This document shows positions 8,197-20,879 of a DNA stretch of 20,900 bases, in pieces. Location of the stretch: the IMG/VR virus record IMGVR_UViG_3300028198_000024, positions 1-20,900 of that record; one strand, 5' to 3'. The translations under genes were made by a program, and so were the position numbers. The notes beneath the pieces are model-generated. The model was not told the DNA's origin, searched no databases, and saw only the letters and a list, made by a program, of their open reading frames with translations. The DNA comes from a virus. Each line of letters starts with the position of its first letter. The first letter of the stretch is position 1.

Positions 8197-8220
8197 TGTT
8201 TAATTTTATAATATTTTATT

Positions 8221-9432
8221 ATGGCTAACAAAAAAGAAGTTGTTGAAGAAATTCAAGAACCAAAAACAAATGAATCGGTTGAAGAAACAACTAAAGTTGT
8301 AGAAGAACCAAAAATTAGAATCAAGAAGCGGATTAAAAAACTTGTTGATGAAACACCTAATGTTATTAAAGTTGATTTAAGTAAACAAAAGGTGGATGAA
8401 CCTAAAGCTGAAACAAAAGATAAAGTTGTTGAGGAAGTTAAAGAAGAGGTTAAAGAAGAACAACCTAAAGAAGAGGTTGTTGAAGAAACACCAGTTTTAG
8501 AAGAAATAACAAATGAAGAACCAGCACCAGAAACAATTGTAAAAGATGTTCCTAGTGAAAAAGAGGTTGTAGATGCTGTTGTTGAAAAACAAAGTAAAGG
8601 TAAAGAATTACCAGAAAATATTCAAAAAGTTGTAAACTTTATGGATGAAACTGGTGGTAGTTTAGAAGATTACGTTAATTTAAACACCGATTATAGTGGT
8701 TTAAATAATGAGTCTTTATTAAAAGAATACTACAAAAAAACTAAAAGTCATCTAGATGATTCAGAAATAGATTTCCTTATTCAGGATTCATTTTCTATTG
8801 ATGAAGATGTTGACGATGAACGACAAATTAAAAAGAAAAAGATAGCGATTAAAGAGCAGGTTGCCAGCGCTAAAAGCCACCTAGACGGGCTAAAGTCTAA
8901 ATACTATGAAGAGATCAAAGCTGGTTCGAAGTTGCTCCCAGAGCAACAGAAAGCGGTTGAATTCTTTTCTAGGTATACGAAGGAAGCAGATGAAAATCAG
9001 AAAGTAGCAGATGTACAATTATCTACATTTCAACAAAAGACTGACGAGGTCTTTAACGATTCGTTCAAAGGTTTTGAATATAACATCGGGGAAAAGAAAT
9101 TTAGATTTAATGTAAAAAATGCTGATGAGGTTAAGGGTACACAAAGTAGCATAGATAATTTCGTTAAGAAGTTTCTTGACAAAAAGAATACATTATCAGA
9201 TGCGAAAGGTTATCATAAATCCATATTTACAGCAATGAACCCTGATGCTATTGCAAACCATTTTTATGAACAAGGTAAAGCTGATGCTATCAAGGATAGT
9301 ATCGCTAAATCAAAAAACGTTAGCATGGACCCAAGGCGATCGCACGCGAATGCAATACAGTCCGGCGGAATAAAAGTGAGAGCTATCCCTGGTAAAACAG
9401 CTGCTGATTTCAAATTTAAAATCAAAAAGTAA
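8221..9432 (+). CDS. Candidate capsid scaffolding/head assembly protein
   Basis: A 403-residue hydrophilic protein between portal and capsid genes, the usual place of a scaffold. Residues 1 to about 130 are low-complexity, dominated by K, E and V (VVEEPKIRIKKRIKK, then EEVKEEVKEEQPKEE). Residues about 130-370 are mostly helical with no enzyme motif, including QVASAKSHLDGLKSKYYEE. The end is basic (GKTAADFKFKIKK), as in scaffolds whose C-terminal helix binds the capsid protein. Codon use changes along the gene: bases after about 8845 and 9335-9400 use more G+C than the K/E tract, suggesting a replaceable, fast-evolving N-terminus. No protease motif is seen. A minor head or cargo protein is the alternative. 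The ATG follows a 24-base A/T-rich spacer. Confidence 0.65.
   Translation: MANKKEVVEEIQEPKTNESVEETTKVVEEPKIRIKKRIKKLVDETPNVIKVDLSKQKVDEPKAETKDKVVEEVKEEVKEEQPKEEVVEETPVLEEITNEEPAPETIVKDVPSEKEVVDAVVEKQSKGKELPENIQKVVNFMDETGGSLEDYVNLNTDYSGLNNESLLKEYYKKTKSHLDDSEIDFLIQDSFSIDEDVDDERQIKKKKIAIKEQVASAKSHLDGLKSKYYEEIKAGSKLLPEQQKAVEFFSRYTKEADENQKVADVQLSTFQQKTDEVFNDSFKGFEYNIGEKKFRFNVKNADEVKGTQSSIDNFVKKFLDKKNTLSDAKGYHKSIFTAMNPDAIANHFYEQGKADAIKDSIAKSKNVSMDPRRSHANAIQSGGIKVRAIPGKTAADFKFKIKK
8437..8475 (+). repeat. Short tandem K/E-coding repeat
   Basis: Two near-perfect 12-base tandem units, GTTAAAGAAGAG (8437-8448) and GTTAAAGAAGAA (8449-8460), are followed by a related CCTAAAGAAGAG (8464-8475). They encode VKEE-type units in the scaffold-like protein and could change length by replication slippage without breaking the frame. 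Confidence 0.6.
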
Positions 9433-9458: not shown

Positions 9459-10886
9459 ATGGCAATAGCTAGTTCAGGTGCCGCGTTAGCGCACCTAACC
9501 CCCAGACCCATACAAGGTCTATTTGGGGACAATTATTTGAGTTTCACCGGAGCTGGTGGAACTTTTGCTGCTCAGTTTTTACCGGAAGTATATGAAAAAG
9601 AGGTGGAAAGATACGGAAATCGTACTATCTCTGGATTCTTAGGTCAGGTAGGAGCAGAAATGCCTATGGCTTCTGATGAAGTCGTATGGTCTGAGCAAGG
9701 TAGAATTCACGTAGCATATGACGACGCAGTAATCGTTGCACATGACACTACTCCAAACACTTTAACAATGCCAGCTAGTCACTTATTAAAAATTGGTGAT
9801 ACTATCGTTGTTTCTAAAGGACAAGTTTCTTTAAAATGTTTTGTAAGTAATGTTGTTACAACAGCAGTTACTGTAGGTTGTTATACAGCTGCAGATCTAC
9901 AAGCTATAAACACTACATCAAGTGCTTCGGTAACAGCTGTGAAAGTGTTTGTATATGGAACTGAGTATAAAAAAGGATCAGAAGGTCTAAGCGGATCAAT
10001 TGATGCTAAATTCACTCAGTTTAGTAATAAACCAATCATCTTAAGAGATAGATACAGCATTAACGGTTCTGACACAGCTCAGATCGGTTGGGTTGAAGTA
10101 ACTACTGAAGATGGTGGTGATGGTTTCTTATGGTATTTAAAATCTGAGCATGAAGCTCGTATTAGATTTGAAGACCAATTAGAAATGGCAATGATCGAAG
10201 CTGAGAAAAAAGCTTCAGGTTCAGGTATATCTGCATCAGGTACTGGTGCTGGAATTACTGGTTCTGAAGGTTTATTCGCTGCAATTAGTTCAAGAGGTTT
10301 AGTCTACAATGACCAAGCTTTTCAAACTGACGCCACAACAACTGGTATCGTTGAGTTTGACAATATATTAAAAGAATTAGACAAACAAGGTTCTATTGAA
10401 GAAAATATGATTTTCTGTGGTAGAGACTTATCTCTAGGTCTTGATAATATGTTATCAGATCAAAACAGAGCATTTGCTGCTGGTTCTTCTTACGGTGTAT
10501 TTAACAACGAAGAAGATATGGCACTTAATTTAGGTTTCAATGGATTTAGAAGAGGTTCTTATGACTTCTATAAAACTGATTGGAAATATCTAAATGATGG
10601 TACCACTAGAGGACTTGTTGCTGATATAGAAGGTGTATTAGTTCCTGCTGGAACAAGTACAGTTTATGATCAATCGTTAGGAAAGAATATATCTAGACCG
10701 TTTTTACACGTAAGATATAGAGCTTCTGAAGCTGATGACAGAAAGAATAAATCATGGATCACTGGATCTGTTGGTGGAAACTATACTTCTGACGCGGATA
10801 CGATGACTGTAAATTTCTTATCAGAAAGATGTCTTTGTGTACAAGCTGCAAACAACTTTGTATTATTCAAAGATACTGCTGCTTAA
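9459..10886 (+). CDS. Major capsid protein (HK97-like fold inferred)
   Basis: A 475-residue protein after the portal and scaffold-like genes and before a strong terminator. The N-terminus (MAIASSGAALAHLTPRPIQG) is small and flexible. Residues about 97-168 are beta-rich (LLKIGDTIVVSKGQ, then TAVKVFVYGTEY) and look like an inserted domain. HEARIRFEDQLEMAMIEAEK from 231 fits the long spine helix region, and the Ser/Gly linker GSGISASGTGAGITG (about 250-264) could be a surface loop. The C-terminal part, with ISRPFLHVRYRASEADD and a Cys-containing segment LSERCLCVQ, suits the P-domain/A-domain. Layout and length suit crAss-like capsid proteins. Codons ending in C (TTC, GAC, AAC, ATC) appear more often than in neighbouring genes, as expected for the most abundant protein. 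The TAA stop is backed by an in-frame TGA two codons later. Confidence 0.85.
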   Translation: MAIASSGAALAHLTPRPIQGLFGDNYLSFTGAGGTFAAQFLPEVYEKEVERYGNRTISGFLGQVGAEMPMASDEVVWSEQGRIHVAYDDAVIVAHDTTPNTLTMPASHLLKIGDTIVVSKGQVSLKCFVSNVVTTAVTVGCYTAADLQAINTTSSASVTAVKVFVYGTEYKKGSEGLSGSIDAKFTQFSNKPIILRDRYSINGSDTAQIGWVEVTTEDGGDGFLWYLKSEHEARIRFEDQLEMAMIEAEKKASGSGISASGTGAGITGSEGLFAAISSRGLVYNDQAFQTDATTTGIVEFDNILKELDKQGSIEENMIFCGRDLSLGLDNMLSDQNRAFAAGSSYGVFNNEEDMALNLGFNGFRRGSYDFYKTDWKYLNDGTTRGLVADIEGVLVPAGTSTVYDQSLGKNISRPFLHVRYRASEADDRKNKSWITGSVGGNYTSDADTMTVNFLSERCLCVQAANNFVLFKDTAA

Positions 10887-10907
10887 GCATGACAATTACT
10901 TAAAGAG

Positions 10908-10940
10908 TTGGGTGCTTCGGCACCCAATCCTTTATTTTTA
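10908..10940 (+). terminator. Intrinsic terminator after the capsid gene
   Basis: An 8-bp perfect stem, TTGGGTGC (10908-10915) with GCACCCAA (10920-10927), closes a UUCG tetraloop on a C-G pair, an especially stable loop. A G-T pair can extend it at the base. A T-rich tail, TCCTTTATTTTTATT, follows. This is the clearest terminator in the window and probably lowers transcription of the tail genes relative to the capsid gene. Confidence 0.85.
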
Positions 10941-10964
10941 TTAACTATTTAATTATATTATATT

Positions 10965-11741
10965 ATGAAAATTATGACAATAACAAAGCCAAAAGATTGG
11001 CAAGTAAAAGATAGGACATATATATTAGCTGACGAAAGAAAGCCTATAGTATTTTCTATACCAACTAGACATACTTCTAAAGCCCCACTTATGTGGTTTG
11101 ATCCAGAATTAGGTTACAACAGGGAATTAAGGTATGCAACTAATCAACCATCACCATTTGTAGATGAACAAGAAGGTACTTCTACGCTTGGGCATGTTGT
11201 TTTAAGGAACGGTGTTTTAATCGTTCAAAAAGAACAACAAAATTTACAACTTCTACTTTCAGTATACCATCCTTATAAAACTAAGGGTATATATAAAGAA
11301 AGAGATGTTGTTTTACAAGCAGAGGGTGAATTAGATTATATGGAAATTGAGGTTGAGGCATTAAATGTCGCGATACAATTAGACGTAGATCACGCAGAAG
11401 CTTTATTAAGAGTTGAACAAGGTAGTAAAGTCAATACCATGACATCTAAAGAAATTAAAAGAGATGTTTTATTTATGGCTAAAAGAAACCCACGTTTATT
11501 CTTAGAATTAGCAAAAGATGATAACATTGAATTAAGAAATTTAGGTATTAAAGCTACAGAAGCTGGTATACTTGGATTATCTACCGATAGAAGAGTATTT
11601 ACACTTAAATCTAGTGGTAGAAAAATAATGAGTGTTCCATTTGATGAACACCCTTACTCAGCTTTAGCCGCATGGTTTAAAACTGATGAAGGATTAGAGA
11701 TGGTTAAAAGTCTCGAAAAAAAGATGAAAATTAAAAAGTAA
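10965..11741 (+). CDS. Conserved virion-type protein of unknown function (258 aa)
   Basis: A protein I recognise only as a recurring neighbour of the capsid gene in related marine phages. The N-terminal half is beta-rich (WQVKDRTYILADERKPIVFS, RNGVLIVQKEQQNLQLLLSV) and the rest is mixed or helical, with SKEIKRDVLFMAKRNPRLFL and a final ALAAWFKTDEGLEMVKSLEK followed by a basic tail. The position between capsid and ring genes suggests a head-completion, minor capsid or connector protein; no catalytic motif is seen. Two starts are possible, ATG 10965 (chosen, giving MKIMTITKPK) or ATG 10974; both follow A/T-only sequence. The gene is bracketed by two UNCG-loop hairpins. After its single TAA the frame stays open through the 60-base gap into the next gene. 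Confidence 0.75.
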   Translation: MKIMTITKPKDWQVKDRTYILADERKPIVFSIPTRHTSKAPLMWFDPELGYNRELRYATNQPSPFVDEQEGTSTLGHVVLRNGVLIVQKEQQNLQLLLSVYHPYKTKGIYKERDVVLQAEGELDYMEIEVEALNVAIQLDVDHAEALLRVEQGSKVNTMTSKEIKRDVLFMAKRNPRLFLELAKDDNIELRNLGIKATEAGILGLSTDRRVFTLKSSGRKIMSVPFDEHPYSALAAWFKTDEGLEMVKSLEKKMKIKK

Positions 11742-11754
11742 TCACTTTGTAGTA

Positions 11755-11778
11755 GCAGTCGCTCTACGGAGCGATTGC
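11755..11778 (+). other. 10-bp hairpin with UACG tetraloop between tail genes
   Basis: GCAGTCGCTC (11755-11764) pairs with GAGCGATTGC (11769-11778), with one G-T wobble, around a TACG loop closed by C-G, another UNCG-class loop. No T-run follows (the next bases are ATACTATAAATAAAA), so it is not a classic terminator. It sits 23 bases before the next start and could mark an RNA processing, stabilising or partial termination site. Confidence 0.75.
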
Positions 11779-11782
11779 ATAC

Positions 11783-11790
11783 TATAAATA
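11783..11790 (+). promoter_or_regulatory. TATAAATA element upstream of ring protein gene
   Basis: A second intergenic TATAAATA lies eleven bases before the ATG at 11802, directly after the UACG hairpin. Placement matches the copy at 1837-1844. It could be a late-promoter-like site or part of an A/T translation start region; chance occurrence is plausible. Confidence 0.2.
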
Positions 11791-11801
11791 AAAAAATTAT
11801 T

Positions 11802-12509
11802 ATGGTCAGTATAGACACGGTATATCAAAGGGTATTAGGTATTTTAAACAAAGAACAAAGAGGTTACATAACACCTCAAGAGTTCAACCTGTTAGCTAAT
11901 CAAGCTCAATTAGATATTTTTGAGCAATACTTTTATGATATAAATGCTTTCGGTAGAATCGAAGGTAATGATACGACATATTCAGATATATTAGATTTAC
12001 TTCAAGAAAAAATTGATATATTTGAAAAATATAGACAACCCATATCATCCATCACTAGTGCAGGTGTTGGTACATTACCAACTCATTATAGAATGGGTGA
12101 ATTATACAGCAATAGTAATACTGGTGGTTATGTTGAAATCGAAAAGATACAACAAAACCAAATACTACACTTACAAAACTCCCCACTAACAGCTCCAACA
12201 GCAACGAGACCAGTTTACGTACAATTAACAGAAACAACATTCCAAACTTATCCCACAATGACAGTGGTAGCTGACGTCGTGTGTAATTATATAGCTAAAC
12301 CACAAACGGTAGAATGGACATATGTTTTGGTTAACGGTTATCCGTTATACAATAATACAAATGTAAAAGATTTTGAACTACACGCATCTGATGAAACTGA
12401 ATTAGTTATAAAGACATTAGCTTTATGTGGGGTTGTTTTAAATGATCCTAATATGTATCAATTAGCAACCGCTGAAGAAGCTAAGAACCAACAACAAGAA
12501 AAACAATAA
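11802..12509 (+). CDS. Ring/adaptor (head-tail connector) type protein
   Basis: A 235-residue protein starting MVSIDTVYQRVLGILNKEQRG. The helical N-terminus, continuing YITPQEFNLLANQAQLDIFE, is a segment I recognise from conserved connector-region proteins of marine podoviruses and crAss-like phages. In T7/P22-type virions such adaptors sit below the portal and join it to the tail. Residues about 80-190 are beta-rich; the end is Gln/Glu/Lys-rich (EEAKNQQQEKQ). I chose ATG 11802. The in-frame TTG at 11775 would add nine residues but lies inside the hairpin and lacks the A/T start context. The next gene begins after TAA plus three bases, in the same frame. The exact ring assignment is inference. 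Confidence 0.75.
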   Translation: MVSIDTVYQRVLGILNKEQRGYITPQEFNLLANQAQLDIFEQYFYDINAFGRIEGNDTTYSDILDLLQEKIDIFEKYRQPISSITSAGVGTLPTHYRMGELYSNSNTGGYVEIEKIQQNQILHLQNSPLTAPTATRPVYVQLTETTFQTYPTMTVVADVVCNYIAKPQTVEWTYVLVNGYPLYNNTNVKDFELHASDETELVIKTLALCGVVLNDPNMYQLATAEEAKNQQQEKQ

Positions 12510-12512
12510 GAT

Positions 12513-13625
12513 ATGCCATTATTACAAGGAACACAACAACAATATTATGGATCTCAAGAGTTCTCAGGCAACGCTAGTGCTGGCCCTTTTACTTTATCAT
12601 TTCCTAATAATTTAATTGGATCACCATCTAATGTTACAATGCCTGTATCTAGTGGTGAATTTAGTGTTGCTGTTGGTGGAGTTATACAACTTTTAACTAC
12701 ACATTATACTTACAACGCAACTACTTATCAAATAACATTTACTAGTGGGAATCACCCAGCGAGTGGGGTTGCTATTGTTGTTAGTTTATTAAATCCAAAT
12801 ATTGGTAATTATCAATTTATAAATTTAACAACAATAATTAATAACTTTTTGGTTAGTTATGTTGGTCAAGATAAAATAATATCTAAAGTTAGGAGAGCTG
12901 ATATAGCTTTTCATGCTCAAAGAGCAATACAAGAATTAAGTTATGATACTTTTAAATCTGAAAAATCACAAGAAATTGAATTAGGTTTATCATTAAAAAT
13001 GAAATTACCACACGATTATGTTAATTATGTAAAAGTCACATGGAAAGATACAAGTGGTATAGAAAGAATAATATTACCAGCTAGACAAACAAGTAATCCA
13101 ACAGCATTGATGCAAGATAGTGATTATGGATATTTATTTGATAGTAGTGGTAATATAGCAACAGCTAGCGATTCAGACACATGGACTTCTTTTAAAGCTT
13201 CCACAGGTGAAAGTGATGCTAATTCAGATTCTAATGGTGTAGACGAAACTTTATCAGGTGGTAGAAGATATGGTTTAGAACCTGAAAGAGCACATGGAAA
13301 TGGAGTTTATTATATTGATCCATTAAAAGGTACTATAAACTTTAGCTCTGATTTATCTGGTAAAACAATAACATTAAAATATATAAGCGATGGATTAGGT
13401 ACTGAAAATGAAATGATAGTTCATAAATTTGCTGAAGAAGCAATGTATAAATGGATTGCACATGCTATTTTATCCACAAAATCTAATGTGCAAGAATATT
13501 TAGTAGCTAGATTTAAAAAAGAAAGATATGCAGCAGTAAGAACTGCTAAATTACGATTATCAAATATAAAATTAGAGGAACTAACTCAAGTTATGAGGGG
13601 TAAGTCTAAGGTAATAAAACATTAG
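12513..13625 (+). CDS. Ring/tail-stabilisation type protein with extra N-terminal beta module
   Basis: A 370-residue protein in two parts. Residues about 20-92 form a beta-strand module (GPFTLSFPNNLIG, FSVAVGGVIQLLTTHYTYNA, YQITFTSGNHPASGVAIVV) of the kind seen at the start of phage tail fibre and appendage proteins. From about 103 it matches a recurring podoviral neck protein: IINNFLVSYVGQDKIISKVR, ADIAFHAQRAIQELSYDTFK, LPHDYVNYVKVTW, and a helical C-terminus with MIVHKFAEEAMYKWIAHAIL and a basic tail. In the relatives I recall, the protein begins near the second part, so the first part looks like a fusion. It probably forms a ring between the 235-residue adaptor and the giant tail protein. 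It ends with TAG; after one further codon (AGC) the next ATG follows in the same frame. Confidence 0.72.
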   Translation: MPLLQGTQQQYYGSQEFSGNASAGPFTLSFPNNLIGSPSNVTMPVSSGEFSVAVGGVIQLLTTHYTYNATTYQITFTSGNHPASGVAIVVSLLNPNIGNYQFINLTTIINNFLVSYVGQDKIISKVRRADIAFHAQRAIQELSYDTFKSEKSQEIELGLSLKMKLPHDYVNYVKVTWKDTSGIERIILPARQTSNPTALMQDSDYGYLFDSSGNIATASDSDTWTSFKASTGESDANSDSNGVDETLSGGRRYGLEPERAHGNGVYYIDPLKGTINFSSDLSGKTITLKYISDGLGTENEMIVHKFAEEAMYKWIAHAILSTKSNVQEYLVARFKKERYAAVRTAKLRLSNIKLEELTQVMRGKSKVIKH

Positions 13626-13628
13626 AGC

Positions 13629-16600
13629 ATGCCGGAAATTAAAAATACATTCCAAGCAGGGAAAATGAATAAAGATCTCGATGAGAGATTGATTCGAAAT
13701 GTTGAATATAGAGATGCTTTGAACATAGATATTGCTAGTTCAGAATCTTCAGATGCTGGTGCAGCTGAAAACTCTTATGGTAACATACAAAAATCTTTTC
13801 AAGGTCAAGCTGGTAATAAATGTGTAGGTTCTTTAGCCTATGGATCATTAGATAAAATTATATGGTTAATTGCTGGTACTACAGCAGGTTCAATTAAGAA
13901 AGATTTAATATTAGAATATAATACTGTAACAAAAGTTGTAAATAATATTATAACTGACGTTTATCAAACTACAGCAGTTACTGCGTCAACTGTATCAACT
14001 GGTACTACACTTACATTAGCATCAGCTAATGCAAATTTAAGAGTGGGTATGGTTGTTTCGGGTACTAATATTGTTGTTGGTACAAAAATAACAAATGTTA
14101 ATGGTATAACAATAACTGTAGACACAGCATTTTCATCAGATGTTGCTGCAAATTATACTGTTACGTTTGTAGCAGATAGGGTTTTGAATTTTAAAACAAA
14201 TAACATAATAACTGGTATAAATGTTGTTGAAGATATATTATTTTTTACAGACAACATAACAGAACCAAAAAGAATTCCAATAAAAAGACTAGCTAGTGGA
14301 ACACCAGATAATGCAACACATACTAAATTTAAAGTAGATGGTGTTGATAAAGGGTTTTTAGAGGAAAAACATATAACAGTAATACGAAAATATCCACTTA
14401 ATGCACCAAGCATTGTAATGGATAACAGTGAAGATGGTGGTGTTATTTCTTCATATCATTCATCTTTAGGTAGTGCTTTTACATATATGGATGCAATCAG
14501 TGGTGATGTTGTGGCTTTACCACCCGGTACTAGTTGTGATGCTGCTGCTGAGATTAATGGTGTTACTGTACTTGATTTTACTGCTGGTGGTGCTGGAACT
14601 CCAGCAAGATTATCCCCAACAGCTGGATTACAATTTACGCCAAAACCAGGTTGGGTTGCTGGTCAAACAATAAAACTAACAGCTGAAGCTGTTGATAATG
14701 GATTAGAAGAAGATATAGAAGTTAGGTTAAAACTAAATAGTTTAACAACCGAAGATAGTACTAGTAAAACTTTTAAATGTACTATATTAAGTATATCTGA
14801 TACCACACCATCAGCTGCTTTATCATGGACAGCTATATTAGAACAAAAAGATCCTTTTTATGAATTAGTATTTCCTAGATTTGCTTATCGTTGGAAATAT
14901 GTCGATGGTGAATATTCTGTATTCTCTCCATTTTCAAAAGTTGCATTCTTACCAGAAAAAGAAATAGGGTTTGATTATGATCCTAAGAATGCTTATAATT
15001 TAGCAATGACTAATAATATTAGAAAGTTAACTATAAGTGGATTTGAAACTATACCCCCTGATGTTGTTGAGGTTGATATTTTATATAAAGAATCAAATAA
15101 TACTAATATATATACCGTAGAAACATTAAAACAAGACACTTTATATGATAGTAGTTTTTCTATAACTTCAGAACAAGTACATTCTTTAATACCTAGTAAT
15201 CAATTATTAAGACCATATGATAATGTTCCAAGAACAGCAAAAGCACAAGAGATAAGTGGTAATAGATTAATATATGGTAACTATGTACAACAATTCAATA
15301 TACCATCAGATCCTAAATTCGTATTAACACACACTGCTTCACAAGCAAATTATGGCACTAGAATACCTGAAGAATCACTAAAGTCAATTAGAAATTATCA
15401 AGTAGGTATTATATTTTTGGATAAATATGGGAGACAAACACCTGTCTTATCAAACGATAGTGCTAGTGAAATGATACATCAAGTTGATGGTTCTAAAGTA
15501 AATTCTTTATCAGCTAGAGTAACAACCCCCGCTCCACCTTGGGCAACACATTATAAATATTACATTAAAGAACCATCTGCGGAATATTATAATCTAGCTA
15601 TGGATAGATATTATCCAGCAGAAGATGGTAATATGTGGTTAAGTTTTCCTTCATCTGAAAGAAACAAAGTTGCTGTTGATGATCATATAATATTAAAAAA
15701 GAAACATTCTAGTGATGACCCTGTTTCAACAGATGATAATGCTGGTACTGTTAAATATAAAATACTTGCTATTGAAAATTCAGCTCCAGATTTCTTAAAA
15801 GAACAAAAAACATCTATTGGAACTATATCTACACAATTTGGTACTTCTACTTCAAACGTTACTGGTGGTTTTCCAGAAAAAGATTTTTTAACATTTAAAA
15901 TACCTGGTCCAGATATTGCTAATAGTGCTTTAGGGGATATTGCAGCTGAATCTTTAGGTAGTGCATGGTTTAAAATCGGTAGTGACTCTATGTCTTCTGA
16001 GTATTACAAACCTAGTGAAGTTACAAGGGTGGATGCAAATAGTGATGGAGACTACTCTGAAGATGGTTCTTATTATAGAATTAAAATGGAAAAACCTTTC
16101 GGTGATGATATTTTATTCGTTGGTATTGGGACAGCTAAAACACAAGGATTAACTTTTACGTGGTATAAAGAAGAATTAGATTTATATAAAGCAGAATATT
16201 CTGGTAGATTTTTCATTAAATTAAATAGAGATTCTGTACTAGAAGAGTTTATAGTATCCGCAAATACAAATATAAAGTACGCAATTTTAAACCAAGAGAG
16301 AATATATTGGGTTCAGGGCCTTAGAAATGATAGTGATGATTGGAAAAACAAACAAATATATGCTATTGATTCAGCTGAGTCATATGATAGACAATATGAA
16401 CCTACTTCGCATGATTATGGTATAGGTATGGCTAGGACTGGTTACCACTTTGATATTAGATTATCTGAGATTGGTCCAGAAGAAAAACCAGAAGCGTGGT
16501 TTTATCCACCAAGGGAACAATTTACTGCAAATTATGATTTAAATAACCAATTAAACAACGTTGGCACATTTTTTAGATGGAAAGATGATCCAGCACAAAC

Positions 16601-19600
16601 TGTTTATAAAATAGTACAAACTCAAAAAGAACATTTACATAACTGGAGTGGTGGAAGTAGTAAAAAGAAATGGAGTAGTAATCATGGTATAAGATATAAA
16701 ATAAAAGTTGATAAACCCATAAGTTGGACACCATTAGCTGGTGGTTTTCAAGGTGTAACACCTTCTAATACAGCGTCATTACAATATGGTGGGGGTAATA
16801 CATATCCTTTAACAAGATTTGGTGAAGGAGGATCTAGGAGGAATTCATTTACTGAAATACAAATACTAAAAGAAGTTGATGATGAAATAACTTTTGCTTC
16901 TTCAAATCCAGCTATATGGGAGACAGAACCAAAAGAAAGGATTGATTTAAATTTATACTACGAAACATCAAAAACACATCCTATTGCTGAACTAGGTAAT
17001 GACCAAAAAATAGATTGGTTCAATTGTTACTCATTTGGTAATGGTGTAGAATCTAATAGAATCAGGGATGATTTTAATGCTGTAGTTATAGATAAAGGAC
17101 CTAGAGTATCAACAGAATTAGCAGCGCAATATAAAAAAGAGAATAAAAAAACTGGAATGATATTTTCTGGTATATTTAATTCTTCAAGTGGTGTTAATAG
17201 ATTAAATGAATTTATTCAAGCTGAAGCTATAACTAAAGACTTGAATCCTAGCTATGGTAGTATACAAAAGATTTTTGCTAGAGATACAAATATAATTGTA
17301 TTTTGCGAAGATAAAACATTAAAAGTTTTAGTTGATAAAGATGCTTTATATAGCGCTAGTGGGAGTGCACAACTAACAGCGACAAATAAAACACTAGGAC
17401 AAACAATTCCTTTTCAAGGTGATTATGGTATTTCTACAAACCCAGAATCGTTTGCTACTTTTGGTTTCAGAATATACTATGCTGATAAAAATAGAAATGC
17501 AATATTAAGATTATCTGGTGATGGTATAGAAGAACTTACTAGATACGGTATGACCGATTACTTTAAGGATGCTTACGCAGCTGGTGGTGAAGGTTTAACA
17601 AGTATAATTGGTAGTTATGATGACGATAAAGGTAATTATAATATAACATTAAACTACCCTCACATTACAAGTGAAACCATCAGTTTTACAGAAAAAGTAA
17701 AAGGTTGGACAAGTAGAAAATCCTTTATACAAGAGGATGGTTTGTCATTAAACGGTAAATACTATACATTTTATAACGGAGAGATATGGGAACATAATGC
17801 CAATGCTTTAAGAAATAATTTTTATGGTGTAACGACTAACTATTCAAGTATAAAATTCATATTTAACGAAGGACCATCTGTTGTAAAAAACTTCAAAACA
17901 TTAAACTATGAAGGTAGTGATTCAGCGAAATATGAAACAGTTATTGGTGATGAGAATGATATATTAACCAAAGGTTGGTATAATAATTCTATTGAAACCG
18001 ATCAACAATCTGGACATGTCACTGATTTTGTAAATAAAGAAGGTAAACATTTTAATTATATAAAAGGTCTTGCTACAACTTGGAACAATACAACATTAAC
18101 TGGTAATTTAGATATACAAGAATTTTCATCTCAAGGTGTCGGTAATATAACAAACATTGTAGATAGTGCTAGTCAAACAAAACACAATATAATATATAGT
18201 ATAAATATTACAAATCTCGCAGCTAATCATGCATCATTATTATTAGCTGGTTTAGTAGATGAGGCTGGTGACCCAACATATACGACTTCTAGTACAGATG
18301 GACCATATGTTAATGGATTGGGTGTTATAACAAAAACAGCAACATCCTCTGTAAGTCAAGATATAGTTATAACTATAACCCCAGCAGTTGGCTATGTATT
18401 AGATGCTGCTAGTTTTGCTAATGCTTCTACAAATGAAACAAGTTCGCCAATAACAAACGCTGTTAATGGTAATATACTTTTTGCTAATACAGGAACAGCA
18501 AATACTTACGCTAATAAAGTAACGGTTACTATGCCAATATCCTTTACTATGCCTGCTCAAGATCAGACGATTGTAGGTAACATTACTGGTTCAGCTATAA
18601 GTAAAAGATATAGTGTAAGTGGTACATCTTCAGATGTTATAACAAATGAAGACGGTAGTTCAAATACTGTTTCAGGAAGTGGAGCAACATATAGTGTTGT
18701 TGGTGGTTTTGGACAAACAGTAACTCTATTTACAAGAGTATATACTGTTGGAGCAAACTCTATATTTCCAGCGCTTATAAGTAAAGATATGAATGGGTGT
18801 AAAACACCTAGTAATTATACCATTAAAGCAACAGAAACTACAGGTGGTGTTGCGGGTGGTAATTTAACTGTATGTACAATTCAAGTTGATTATACTTTTC
18901 CAGAAGAAGATGTAGAAGAAGATCATATTAATTTTGTTGGTAAAACAATACCATATTACGCACCATCAACTAGTAAAATATATAGTTATAAAATATCACA
19001 AGAAACAATACCTTATAGTGGTGTAACGAAAACATTATATATATGGGGTGACAAAGATGCCACTGTTGATATAAATGTTTTTGACCAAGCCGCAACAAGT
19101 GTTAGTTTATTAGGTTCAGCTTATAATAGTACTAGAAAAGTAATAACAATACCTGAAAAAGGTTTACATAAAGAAACAATAATATTTGATACTATATTGG
19201 CCGATGGGGCAGCTTTAAAAACATACTCTGTTGAAATGCAAGAAAAAGCAGGTTCAGTGGGTGTTTTCCAAGGTCCAATGGGTGGAACTGGAACTCCAAA
19301 ACTAACAACAGTTAGTATAATACAAAGAGCAAAAATGAGTGTTGTTTATGGATTAGCAGCAAATAGCCCTCAACCAGTTGGTTACACTGTACCAGCAACA
19401 AAAAATGTTAGTTATATAACAGGTAGAGATCCTAGGGAGGATTCGGATTATACAAATCCTCAATTTACATTTGATATATTAGCTACAAGTACAGCTAGTA
19501 ATTGGAAATTAATACGACAACCATTAAATACAGATTTTGGATCTTCAGCAAATGCAGTGGCAAATACTAATAATGGGTTAGTGCAAGGAGCACTTGGTAC

Positions 19601-20477
19601 AATAATAAATCCAGACGTAACTTTAACTGTTGATAATAGCTTAACAAATGCTAAAGCATCTTTTACAGGTGAATTTTCTACTAGATTAGTTGGTACACCG
19701 GGTAATACTGGATCTCAAGTAGAAACGTTAGCTTTATTATTAAATAATATTTTAGTAATAAATCTAATTCCAGTGGCAGCCACACAATCACTTAGCATTG
19801 GGTATAATACAGCTACAGCTGTAGATTGTGATGCTACAGATGCTGACAACGATACGTTAACTTACTCTATTGTAACAGCTCCATCACATGGAAGTTTAAA
19901 CACAATGAATTCAACTAACGGTATTGTTACATATACACCAACAAGTAATTACAGTGGATCAGATAGTTTTAGCTTTAAAGCTAATGATGGGTTAAATGAT
20001 AGTAATACAGCGGTTATTACTCTTACGGTACAAGGCTCAGGTGGTACACCTACTTATTCTGTGGGTTATCAAGAAAAAGATTCTGAAGTATCAGGGGATG
20101 CTTACGCATTATTCTCTCCAACAGGAACACCTACCGTAACACCAAGTGGCTATACTGTTGGTAGTACAAGTAATGTTACTTTCCAAATTACAGGTTTGAA
20201 TTTAGGTCCAATACATGGGGACTTACCTAGTTATGTTGATCACTTAGGTGATTTAAGTAGTTTATTAAATGCTACATTAACTAATAATACAACTAGTAAA
20301 TATAGTATTAGTGGTAACCCAATAATAACAGCGGGTACAATTAATAACGGTGGTTCCGCTAGTGTAACAGCAACAGGATTAACCATATCGTGTACGGTTT
20401 CTAATAGTGGTACAATAGCAAATGGAGACATTATTAACTTAGCAATAAGATTTAACTATGATAACATTACACAATAA
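13629..20477 (+). CDS. Giant tail stabilisation/muzzle-type protein with Ig-like modules (2282 aa)
   Basis: The largest protein here. The start MPEIKNTFQAGKMNKDLDER and RDALNIDIASSESSDAGAAE fit the N-terminus of a conserved tail protein of marine podoviruses and crAss-like phages, thought to form the tail nozzle. The core (to about 1518) has recurrent beta-strand blocks, e.g. FCEDKTLKVLVDKDALYSAS near 1225 and FRIYYADKNRNAILRLSGDG, suggestive of a propeller. It carries two apparent insertions: about 114-183 (LRVGMVVSGTNIVVGTKITN) and about 266-404, where the conserved frame resumes at DPFYELVFPRF. From 1519 on, about 760 Gly/Ser/Thr/Asn-rich residues form accessory domains. Residues about 2046-2134 are cadherin-like (PVAATQSLSI, DATDADNDTLTYSI, GIVTYTPTSNYSGSDSFSFK), a fold common in adhesins. 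A role in tail build and perhaps in cell-surface binding or exopolysaccharide contact is inferred. Confidence 0.75.
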   Translation: MPEIKNTFQAGKMNKDLDERLIRNVEYRDALNIDIASSESSDAGAAENSYGNIQKSFQGQAGNKCVGSLAYGSLDKIIWLIAGTTAGSIKKDLILEYNTVTKVVNNIITDVYQTTAVTASTVSTGTTLTLASANANLRVGMVVSGTNIVVGTKITNVNGITITVDTAFSSDVAANYTVTFVADRVLNFKTNNIITGINVVEDILFFTDNITEPKRIPIKRLASGTPDNATHTKFKVDGVDKGFLEEKHITVIRKYPLNAPSIVMDNSEDGGVISSYHSSLGSAFTYMDAISGDVVALPPGTSCDAAAEINGVTVLDFTAGGAGTPARLSPTAGLQFTPKPGWVAGQTIKLTAEAVDNGLEEDIEVRLKLNSLTTEDSTSKTFKCTILSISDTTPSAALSWTAILEQKDPFYELVFPRFAYRWKYVDGEYSVFSPFSKVAFLPEKEIGFDYDPKNAYNLAMTNNIRKLTISGFETIPPDVVEVDILYKESNNTNIYTVETLKQDTLYDSSFSITSEQVHSLIPSNQLLRPYDNVPRTAKAQEISGNRLIYGNYVQQFNIPSDPKFVLTHTASQANYGTRIPEESLKSIRNYQVGIIFLDKYGRQTPVLSNDSASEMIHQVDGSKVNSLSARVTTPAPPWATHYKYYIKEPSAEYYNLAMDRYYPAEDGNMWLSFPSSERNKVAVDDHIILKKKHSSDDPVSTDDNAGTVKYKILAIENSAPDFLKEQKTSIGTISTQFGTSTSNVTGGFPEKDFLTFKIPGPDIANSALGDIAAESLGSAWFKIGSDSMSSEYYKPSEVTRVDANSDGDYSEDGSYYRIKMEKPFGDDILFVGIGTAKTQGLTFTWYKEELDLYKAEYSGRFFIKLNRDSVLEEFIVSANTNIKYAILNQERIYWVQGLRNDSDDWKNKQIYAIDSAESYDRQYEPTSHDYGIGMARTGYHFDIRLSEIGPEEKPEAWFYPPREQFTANYDLNNQLNNVGTFFRWKDDPAQTVYKIVQTQKEHLHNWSGGSSKKKWSSNHGIRYKIKVDKPISWTPLAGGFQGVTPSNTASLQYGGGNTYPLTRFGEGGSRRNSFTEIQILKEVDDEITFASSNPAIWETEPKERIDLNLYYETSKTHPIAELGNDQKIDWFNCYSFGNGVESNRIRDDFNAVVIDKGPRVSTELAAQYKKENKKTGMIFSGIFNSSSGVNRLNEFIQAEAITKDLNPSYGSIQKIFARDTNIIVFCEDKTLKVLVDKDALYSASGSAQLTATNKTLGQTIPFQGDYGISTNPESFATFGFRIYYADKNRNAILRLSGDGIEELTRYGMTDYFKDAYAAGGEGLTSIIGSYDDDKGNYNITLNYPHITSETISFTEKVKGWTSRKSFIQEDGLSLNGKYYTFYNGEIWEHNANALRNNFYGVTTNYSSIKFIFNEGPSVVKNFKTLNYEGSDSAKYETVIGDENDILTKGWYNNSIETDQQSGHVTDFVNKEGKHFNYIKGLATTWNNTTLTGNLDIQEFSSQGVGNITNIVDSASQTKHNIIYSINITNLAANHASLLLAGLVDEAGDPTYTTSSTDGPYVNGLGVITKTATSSVSQDIVITITPAVGYVLDAASFANASTNETSSPITNAVNGNILFANTGTANTYANKVTVTMPISFTMPAQDQTIVGNITGSAISKRYSVSGTSSDVITNEDGSSNTVSGSGATYSVVGGFGQTVTLFTRVYTVGANSIFPALISKDMNGCKTPSNYTIKATETTGGVAGGNLTVCTIQVDYTFPEEDVEEDHINFVGKTIPYYAPSTSKIYSYKISQETIPYSGVTKTLYIWGDKDATVDINVFDQAATSVSLLGSAYNSTRKVITIPEKGLHKETIIFDTILADGAALKTYSVEMQEKAGSVGVFQGPMGGTGTPKLTTVSIIQRAKMSVVYGLAANSPQPVGYTVPATKNVSYITGRDPREDSDYTNPQFTFDILATSTASNWKLIRQPLNTDFGSSANAVANTNNGLVQGALGTIINPDVTLTVDNSLTNAKASFTGEFSTRLVGTPGNTGSQVETLALLLNNILVINLIPVAATQSLSIGYNTATAVDCDATDADNDTLTYSIVTAPSHGSLNTMNSTNGIVTYTPTSNYSGSDSFSFKANDGLNDSNTAVITLTVQGSGGTPTYSVGYQEKDSEVSGDAYALFSPTGTPTVTPSGYTVGSTSNVTFQITGLNLGPIHGDLPSYVDHLGDLSSLLNATLTNNTTSKYSISGNPIITAGTINNGGSASVTATGLTISCTVSNSGTIANGDIINLAIRFNYDNITQ

Positions 20478-20486
20478 AAAATAAAT

Positions 20487-20879
20487 ATGGCAACAGTAAC
20501 ACTAACCTTTAGTAACGACATTAATGTATCATTACAAGCAAAACCTACTAATATAGAAACTAGTAGTGCTGACAATGTTGATAATGCTATAAGTGATACA
20601 GGTGCTTGGGATATTATATACTACGTAAATTCAGCGGGTAATATAATAAAACTCGGGGAATGCATTGGAATAAATAGGGATAATAAAACGATACAGGTTA
20701 ATGTAGATGATTCTACCGTTAGACCAGTAAACGGAAATTATGTATTTTTTGGTAAAGATACACAAGCGGGTACGTCAGGAGTTATAGGTTACTACGCTGA
20801 AATTGAAATGAAAAATGAAAGTTCTAGTGCGGCAGAGTTATTTGCTGTTAGTACTGAGTATTTCGTTAGTAGTAAATAA
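20487..20879 (+). CDS. Small conserved phage structural-type protein
   Basis: A 130-residue beta-rich, soluble protein starting MATVTLTFSNDINVSLQAKP. NDINVSLQ near the start, KTIQVNVDDSTVRPVNGNYV in the middle, and an end with IGYYAEIEMKNESSSAAELF fit a small protein recurrent in marine phage tail operons, recalled rather than searched. Its role is unknown; a minor tail or fibre-associated part is likely from position after the giant tail protein and the all-beta build. The spacer is nine A/T bases (AAAATAAAT) and the gene stays in the same frame as the four before it. The remaining 21 bases of the window show nothing. Confidence 0.75.
   Translation: MATVTLTFSNDINVSLQAKPTNIETSSADNVDNAISDTGAWDIIYYVNSAGNIIKLGECIGINRDNKTIQVNVDDSTVRPVNGNYVFFGKDTQAGTSGVIGYYAEIEMKNESSSAAELFAVSTEYFVSSK

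Follow-up and report, generated by a model that had tools for sequence, protein, structure and literature searches.

The window analyzed here, a viral fragment of 20.9 kb (20,900 nucleotides) recorded in IMG/VR, carries a module of terminase, portal, capsid, and tail genes akin to those of podophages of Flavobacterium, Cellulophaga, and Maribacter. The major capsid protein gene is followed by five genes, referred to as A to E, and by two hairpins (Table 1). The predicted fold of the gene A product matches, in a structure search, just unnamed proteins of crAss-like phages and other Bacteroidetes podophages. Gene C has no convincing PDB relatives by sequence, and the fold of the gene E product, predicted with low confidence, has no PDB match. 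Positions 2-1789 of the window encode a tail-fibre-like protein with a C-terminal Peptidase_S74 (endosialidase chaperone) domain, and self-cleavage of this protein would be expected. An A+T-rich stretch (TTTAATTWTATWATATTWTATTATG-like) is present in near-identical form at 8202-8223 and 10951-10967, directly 5' of the genes that begin at 8221 and 10965. Similar stretches are present in relatives, and the stretch is a candidate phage promoter or translation-initiation element.

Table 1 Genes and hairpins from the major capsid protein gene to gene E of the window
Feature	Position	Strand	Evidence
Major capsid protein (MCP) gene, head side of the boundary	9459..10886	+	phrog_13704, E = 3e-103; tblastn to annotated Calle_1 MCP
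Terminator-like hairpin 3' of the capsid gene, UUCG loop, U-rich tail	10901..10934	+	Terminator scan, 10907-10928; fold z = -4.2
Gene A, conserved, 258 aa, stop TAA 11739	10965..11741	+	phrog_34748/16922, unknown function
RNA hairpin between genes A and B (60-base spacer)	11746..11788	+	19 pairs, cUACGg loop, without U-tract; z = -8.1
Gene B, virion structural protein, stop TAA 12507	11802..12509	+	phrog_14543, E = 3e-37
Gene C, virion structural protein, stop TAG 13623	12513..13625	+	phrog_13977, E = 5e-44
Gene D part 1 (D1), crAss-like muzzle (tail-tip) protein, aa 1-1530	13629..18218	+	phrog_14478, E = 2e-126; crAss_MUZ_C
Gene D part 2 (D2), Ig/cadherin-like, aa 1531-2282, stop TAA 20475	18219..20477	+	Big_9 (PF17963) at 19767-20027
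Gene E, split-off muzzle C-terminal domain	20487..20879	+	phrog_18548 positions 150-235

Reading frames and stop codons of genes A to E

Genes A to E share one reading frame and are separated by spacers of 60, 3, 3, and 9 bases. The first-pass annotation, the coordinates of which are all exact, proposed that this arrangement reflects low-level readthrough producing fused tail proteins, descent from a polyprotein, or chance. The four isolated stop codons listed in Table 1 are the only ones in this frame between positions 10965 and 20477. The capsid gene is in the same frame, and is followed by a backup TGA at 10890 and also by a TAA at 10950. The designation of all five as tail genes is appropriate for the crAss-like virion structural genes C and D, but not for gene A, which is without known function and is separated from the tail genes by a transcript boundary, being on the side of the head genes. 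Gene D, counted as one gene, is composite.

The window contains 14 consecutive same-strand junctions. With a chance of 1/3 per junction, at least four in-phase junctions in a row are expected with p = 0.09, and at least five with p = 0.03. A random 20-codon gap at the composition of the window (33% G+C) is free of stop codons with p = 0.17. The in-phase pattern was picked post hoc from a large scan, once the sequence had been read; the run barely exceeds chance and, seen in that light, is not remarkable.

All the genes were located, and the positions of their stop codons compared, in a set of 80 related viral contigs. Among non-redundant loci, the A-B junction is out of phase in 66% and in phase in 34% (44 loci), B-C in 34% and 66% (44 loci), C-D in 44% and 56% (43 loci), and D-E in 82% and 18% (11 loci). 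The B-C and C-D spacers include lengths of 1 to 6 bases, those of 1, 2, 4, and 5 bases being common. Many spacers in relatives are not divisible by three, and the shared frame is not a common property of these phages. The nearest relatives (L001 and L002) are in phase from A to D, as is the window, but all four junctions are in phase and open in the window only. The in-phase state is phylogenetically clustered, and flips 12 times at A-B, nine times at B-C, and ten times at C-D on a 51-row tree. We attribute the excess over one third at B-C and C-D to inheritance and to a preference for spacers of 3 bases.

One possibility is that the common frame was selected because low-level readthrough yields fused tail proteins. 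The frame, open across 3305 codons save for the four stops, and the in-phase excess at B-C and C-D are compatible with this idea, and so is the use of TAG as the stop codon of gene C in 20 of 78 loci, since TAG is rare in the neighboring genes. The type of the gene C stop changes eight times on the tree. However, the association of TAG with the in-phase state (Fisher p = 0.007) is gone in phylogenetically independent pairs. In many in-phase relatives a second in-frame stop directly follows the first (TAATAA, TAGTAA, or TAGTAG), as is the case in 13 of the 29 in-phase non-redundant B-C junctions. Furthermore, the gap between A and B evolves as an RNA structure and not as codons. Single in-frame stops with an open frame beyond them, as in readthrough cassettes, are present in the window, but neither they nor the frame relation are conserved among relatives. 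Because relatives are often out of phase or carry tandem stops, readthrough is not supported and is highly improbable, whereas chance, also named by the first-pass annotation, together with short spacers explains the run. Descent from a polyprotein does not hold for A, B, and C.

Composite muzzle gene D and the split-off gene E

The domain crAss_MUZ_C (PF25729) was detected in gene D at positions 17811-18065 with a score of 39.1 bits, compared to the Pfam cut-off of 27, indicating that gene D probably encodes a crAss-like muzzle, a tail-tip protein. The muzzle protein of crAss001, gp44, is a tail-tip protein, and the muzzles of crassviruses differ in length owing to insertions in their crass and IG2 domains (PMC10172136). 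The crAss_MUZ_C domain of gene D is a feature in common with gp44. In contrast to gp44, the C-terminal domain is here encoded by a gene of its own, E, and the muzzle gene has an Ig-domain gene either fused to it or beside it.

In the closest relative, L002, the gene C of which is 81% identical to that of the window, gene D is replaced by two genes: one encoding the muzzle, which ends at 16213, and D2 (L002:16231-18381). The D2 parts of the window and L002 are 32% identical. The fused and separate states of D1 and D2 interchange six times on the tree. Judged from these gene arrangements, gene D is an in-frame fusion of a muzzle gene with an Ig-domain gene. Positions 3-158 of phrog_18548 match gene D, and positions 150-235 match gene E. 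The muzzle and E parts form one continuous protein in Cellulophaga phage Calle_1 and Flavobacterium phage elemoF (L083 and L084). By this comparison, gene E is a former C-terminal domain of the muzzle that is still attached in Cellulophaga and Flavobacterium phages. The result for E comes from a multi-round profile search, which could drift, and the independent PHROG family agrees with it. The single chain in Calle_1 and elemoF indicates that D and E share descent, which is the sole part of the polyprotein idea that holds.

Where D1 and D2 are separate, their stop and start codons overlap (TAATG) in several loci, as could be expected if the two products were linked by programmed frameshifting. 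The frameshift cassette G-GT of phage lambda produces two tail products from neighboring reading frames. However, the slippery site and the conserved frame relation of the lambda cassette are both absent from D1-D2: the offsets (-1, +1, +2, +3, +6, +10, and more) cover all three phases, and the junctions contain no evident slippery heptamer. Programmed frameshifting was rejected as very unlikely. Since the muzzle and Ig-domain genes have fused and split repeatedly, and the C-terminal domain has been freed, D2 and E are both predicted to encode tail-tip components.

Additional muzzle arrangements were observed in several phages, and in the Manatee Spring phage and Panino the chain is broken at different points. 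The muzzle of the Manatee Spring phage (L085 13036-19056, MW202828) is in two pieces that flank an annotated putative glycosidase gene. That of Maribacter phage Panino (L082 12819-16732, PP540027) is encoded in two overlapping frames in the region flanking MUZ_C, which may be a real split or a sequencing frameshift. In L076, L077, L079, and L080, the order is muzzle, E, and a D2-like ORF, instead of muzzle, D2, and E, and the modules appear shuffled.

RNA hairpin between genes A and B

Most of the 60-base spacer between genes A and B is occupied by the hairpin of 19 pairs. Each of the 38 non-redundant loci examined has a hairpin of 14 to 21 pairs at this site, and every relative (approximately 80 distinct marine phage contigs) has the hairpin between genes A and B. 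In the alignment of the core helix, 376 of 376 base-pair cells are paired, compared to 30-58% in slid controls. Two-sided changes, which preserve the pairing as in structured RNAs, were found in eight of the ten core pairs (90 cells). In the core helix, G-U accounts for 54 cells and A-C for none. The fold of the plus strand is the more stable one in 38 of 38 non-redundant sequences, and both observations indicate that the constraint is on the transcript. A DNA palindrome is ruled out by the same G-U pairs and strand bias.

A search of 1.09 Mb with a covariance model identified exactly one copy of the hairpin per locus, always between A and B, and no extra copies elsewhere in the loci. The model also recovered the hairpin at E < 1e-6 in four loci outside the set from which it was built. 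The hairpin has no match in Rfam up to E = 1, so a known Rfam element was rejected as its identity, and no report of it was found in the open-access literature. The hairpin is a new RNA element that had not been listed before, although its general kind is known. A constrained, partly G+C-rich RNA hairpin makes up most of the 60-base spacer, which explains why the spacer is open; an open intergenic gap may signal constraint on RNA rather than readthrough.

In distant cultured phages (Manatee Spring, Calle, elemo, and Panino), a canonical terminator is positioned at or near the site of the hairpin. Downstream of this terminator, elemoF, Calle_1, and the Manatee Spring phage contain the motif TAnnTTTG. 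TAnnTTTG is the consensus of the flavobacterial -7 promoter motif. At the A-B junction of Manatee-like loci, a U-run of at least six was found in 78 of 80 and TAnnTTTG in 80 of 80, whereas in the loci of the window set the corresponding numbers are 2 of 80 and 0 of 80. The eight bases 3' of the stem include zero to three U in 38 of 38 non-redundant sequences, and in the window clade the site of the U-tract is taken by an outer stem, which covaries. A U-tract is present in L055, L057, L069, and several loci from the gene A search. The terminator and no-U states interchange approximately nine times on the gene A tree, which has long branches and modest support. Since a terminator, usually accompanied by a promoter, is at the same place in relatives, the A-B junction is, as far as can be read from these sequences, a transcript boundary, at which the window clade keeps the helix but not the terminator tail. 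The hairpin 3' of the capsid gene has a U-tract that is kept in relatives, and is likely the true terminator of the capsid message.

Proposed role of the hairpin

Similar to intrinsic (Rho-independent) terminators, the A-B hairpin is a stable G+C-rich stem-loop just after a stop codon. However, it differs from them in that no U-tract directly follows the stem, the outer stem covaries, and no promoter motif is present after it. Intercistronic hairpins that process or stabilize messages include the RNase III sites of T7 and REP-type 3' hairpins. The A-B hairpin resembles these in having approximately 18 paired bases, in its position between head and tail genes, and in the single direction of transcription. 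We know of no conserved cleavage signature for these hosts, and a role in cleavage or stability is putative here.

The hairpin probably derives from an ordinary intrinsic terminator or alternates with one, and the window clade has an extended perfect-helix form of it without the U-tract. The boundary separates the head genes (capsid and A) from the connector and tail genes (B, C, D, and E). The hairpin may act on the mRNA, where it would cap and stabilize the 3' end of the head-gene message or mark it for processing, while the polymerase would continue past it, so that head and tail proteins would be made in different amounts. The sequences themselves show the helix with its covariation and position, the terminator at that site in relatives, the phase changes, and the fused and split states. 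The effect of the hairpin on RNA levels is inferred, and protection or processing of the 3' end, separating head from tail expression, is our best guess at it. The joint explanation, with a probability of roughly 70%, is that five genes with normal termination are in phase by chance, the boundary hairpin acts on mRNA, gene D is a fusion, and gene E is a former muzzle domain. The reported in-phase pattern is ordinary, and the real content of the region is the hairpin and the mobile breaks in the tail-tip chain, which result from recurrent gene fusion and splitting. The helix with compensatory changes in approximately 80 marine phage contigs, together with the terminator in relatives, provides a testable case of the conversion of a terminator into another RNA element. 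We only tentatively propose the more specific reading that the hairpin represents a new class of phage regulatory RNA, a former terminator that lost its U-tract, gained the outer stem, and sets head-to-tail ratios by RNA processing or the binding of a phage protein.

The traces in the sequence would look no different for a weak or factor-assisted terminator, or for an RNA operator that binds a protein. The position shared with the canonical terminators of relatives, the U-tracts retained in some loci, and the very stable stem could indicate that the hairpin still works as an intrinsic or factor-assisted terminator, or as an attenuator, and lowers transcription of the tail genes despite having no U-tract. 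The scarcity of U after the stem, the outer stem at the site of the U-tract, and the lack, in all 80 window-set spacers between A and B, of a TAnnTTTG promoter that could restart transcription of gene B make this rather unlikely. The hairpin could also be the RNA operator of a phage protein that autoregulates the translation of head or tail genes. The single copy at a fixed distance to the flanking genes would suit an operator, as would the base changes in the core helix, most of which keep purine or pyrimidine identity, and the one C-G pair that never varies. However, the sequence of the loop is not conserved, the A-rich stretch 5' of the next start codon is outside the helix, and some members of the clade have a small ORF between the hairpin and gene B, which renders the operator improbable.

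The small ORF has approximately 55 codons (..KGLGDTIEKFTKATGIK..DCGCKKRKE..FPYK) and is present in L055, L057, L059, L060, L065, L067-L069, and L071-L080.
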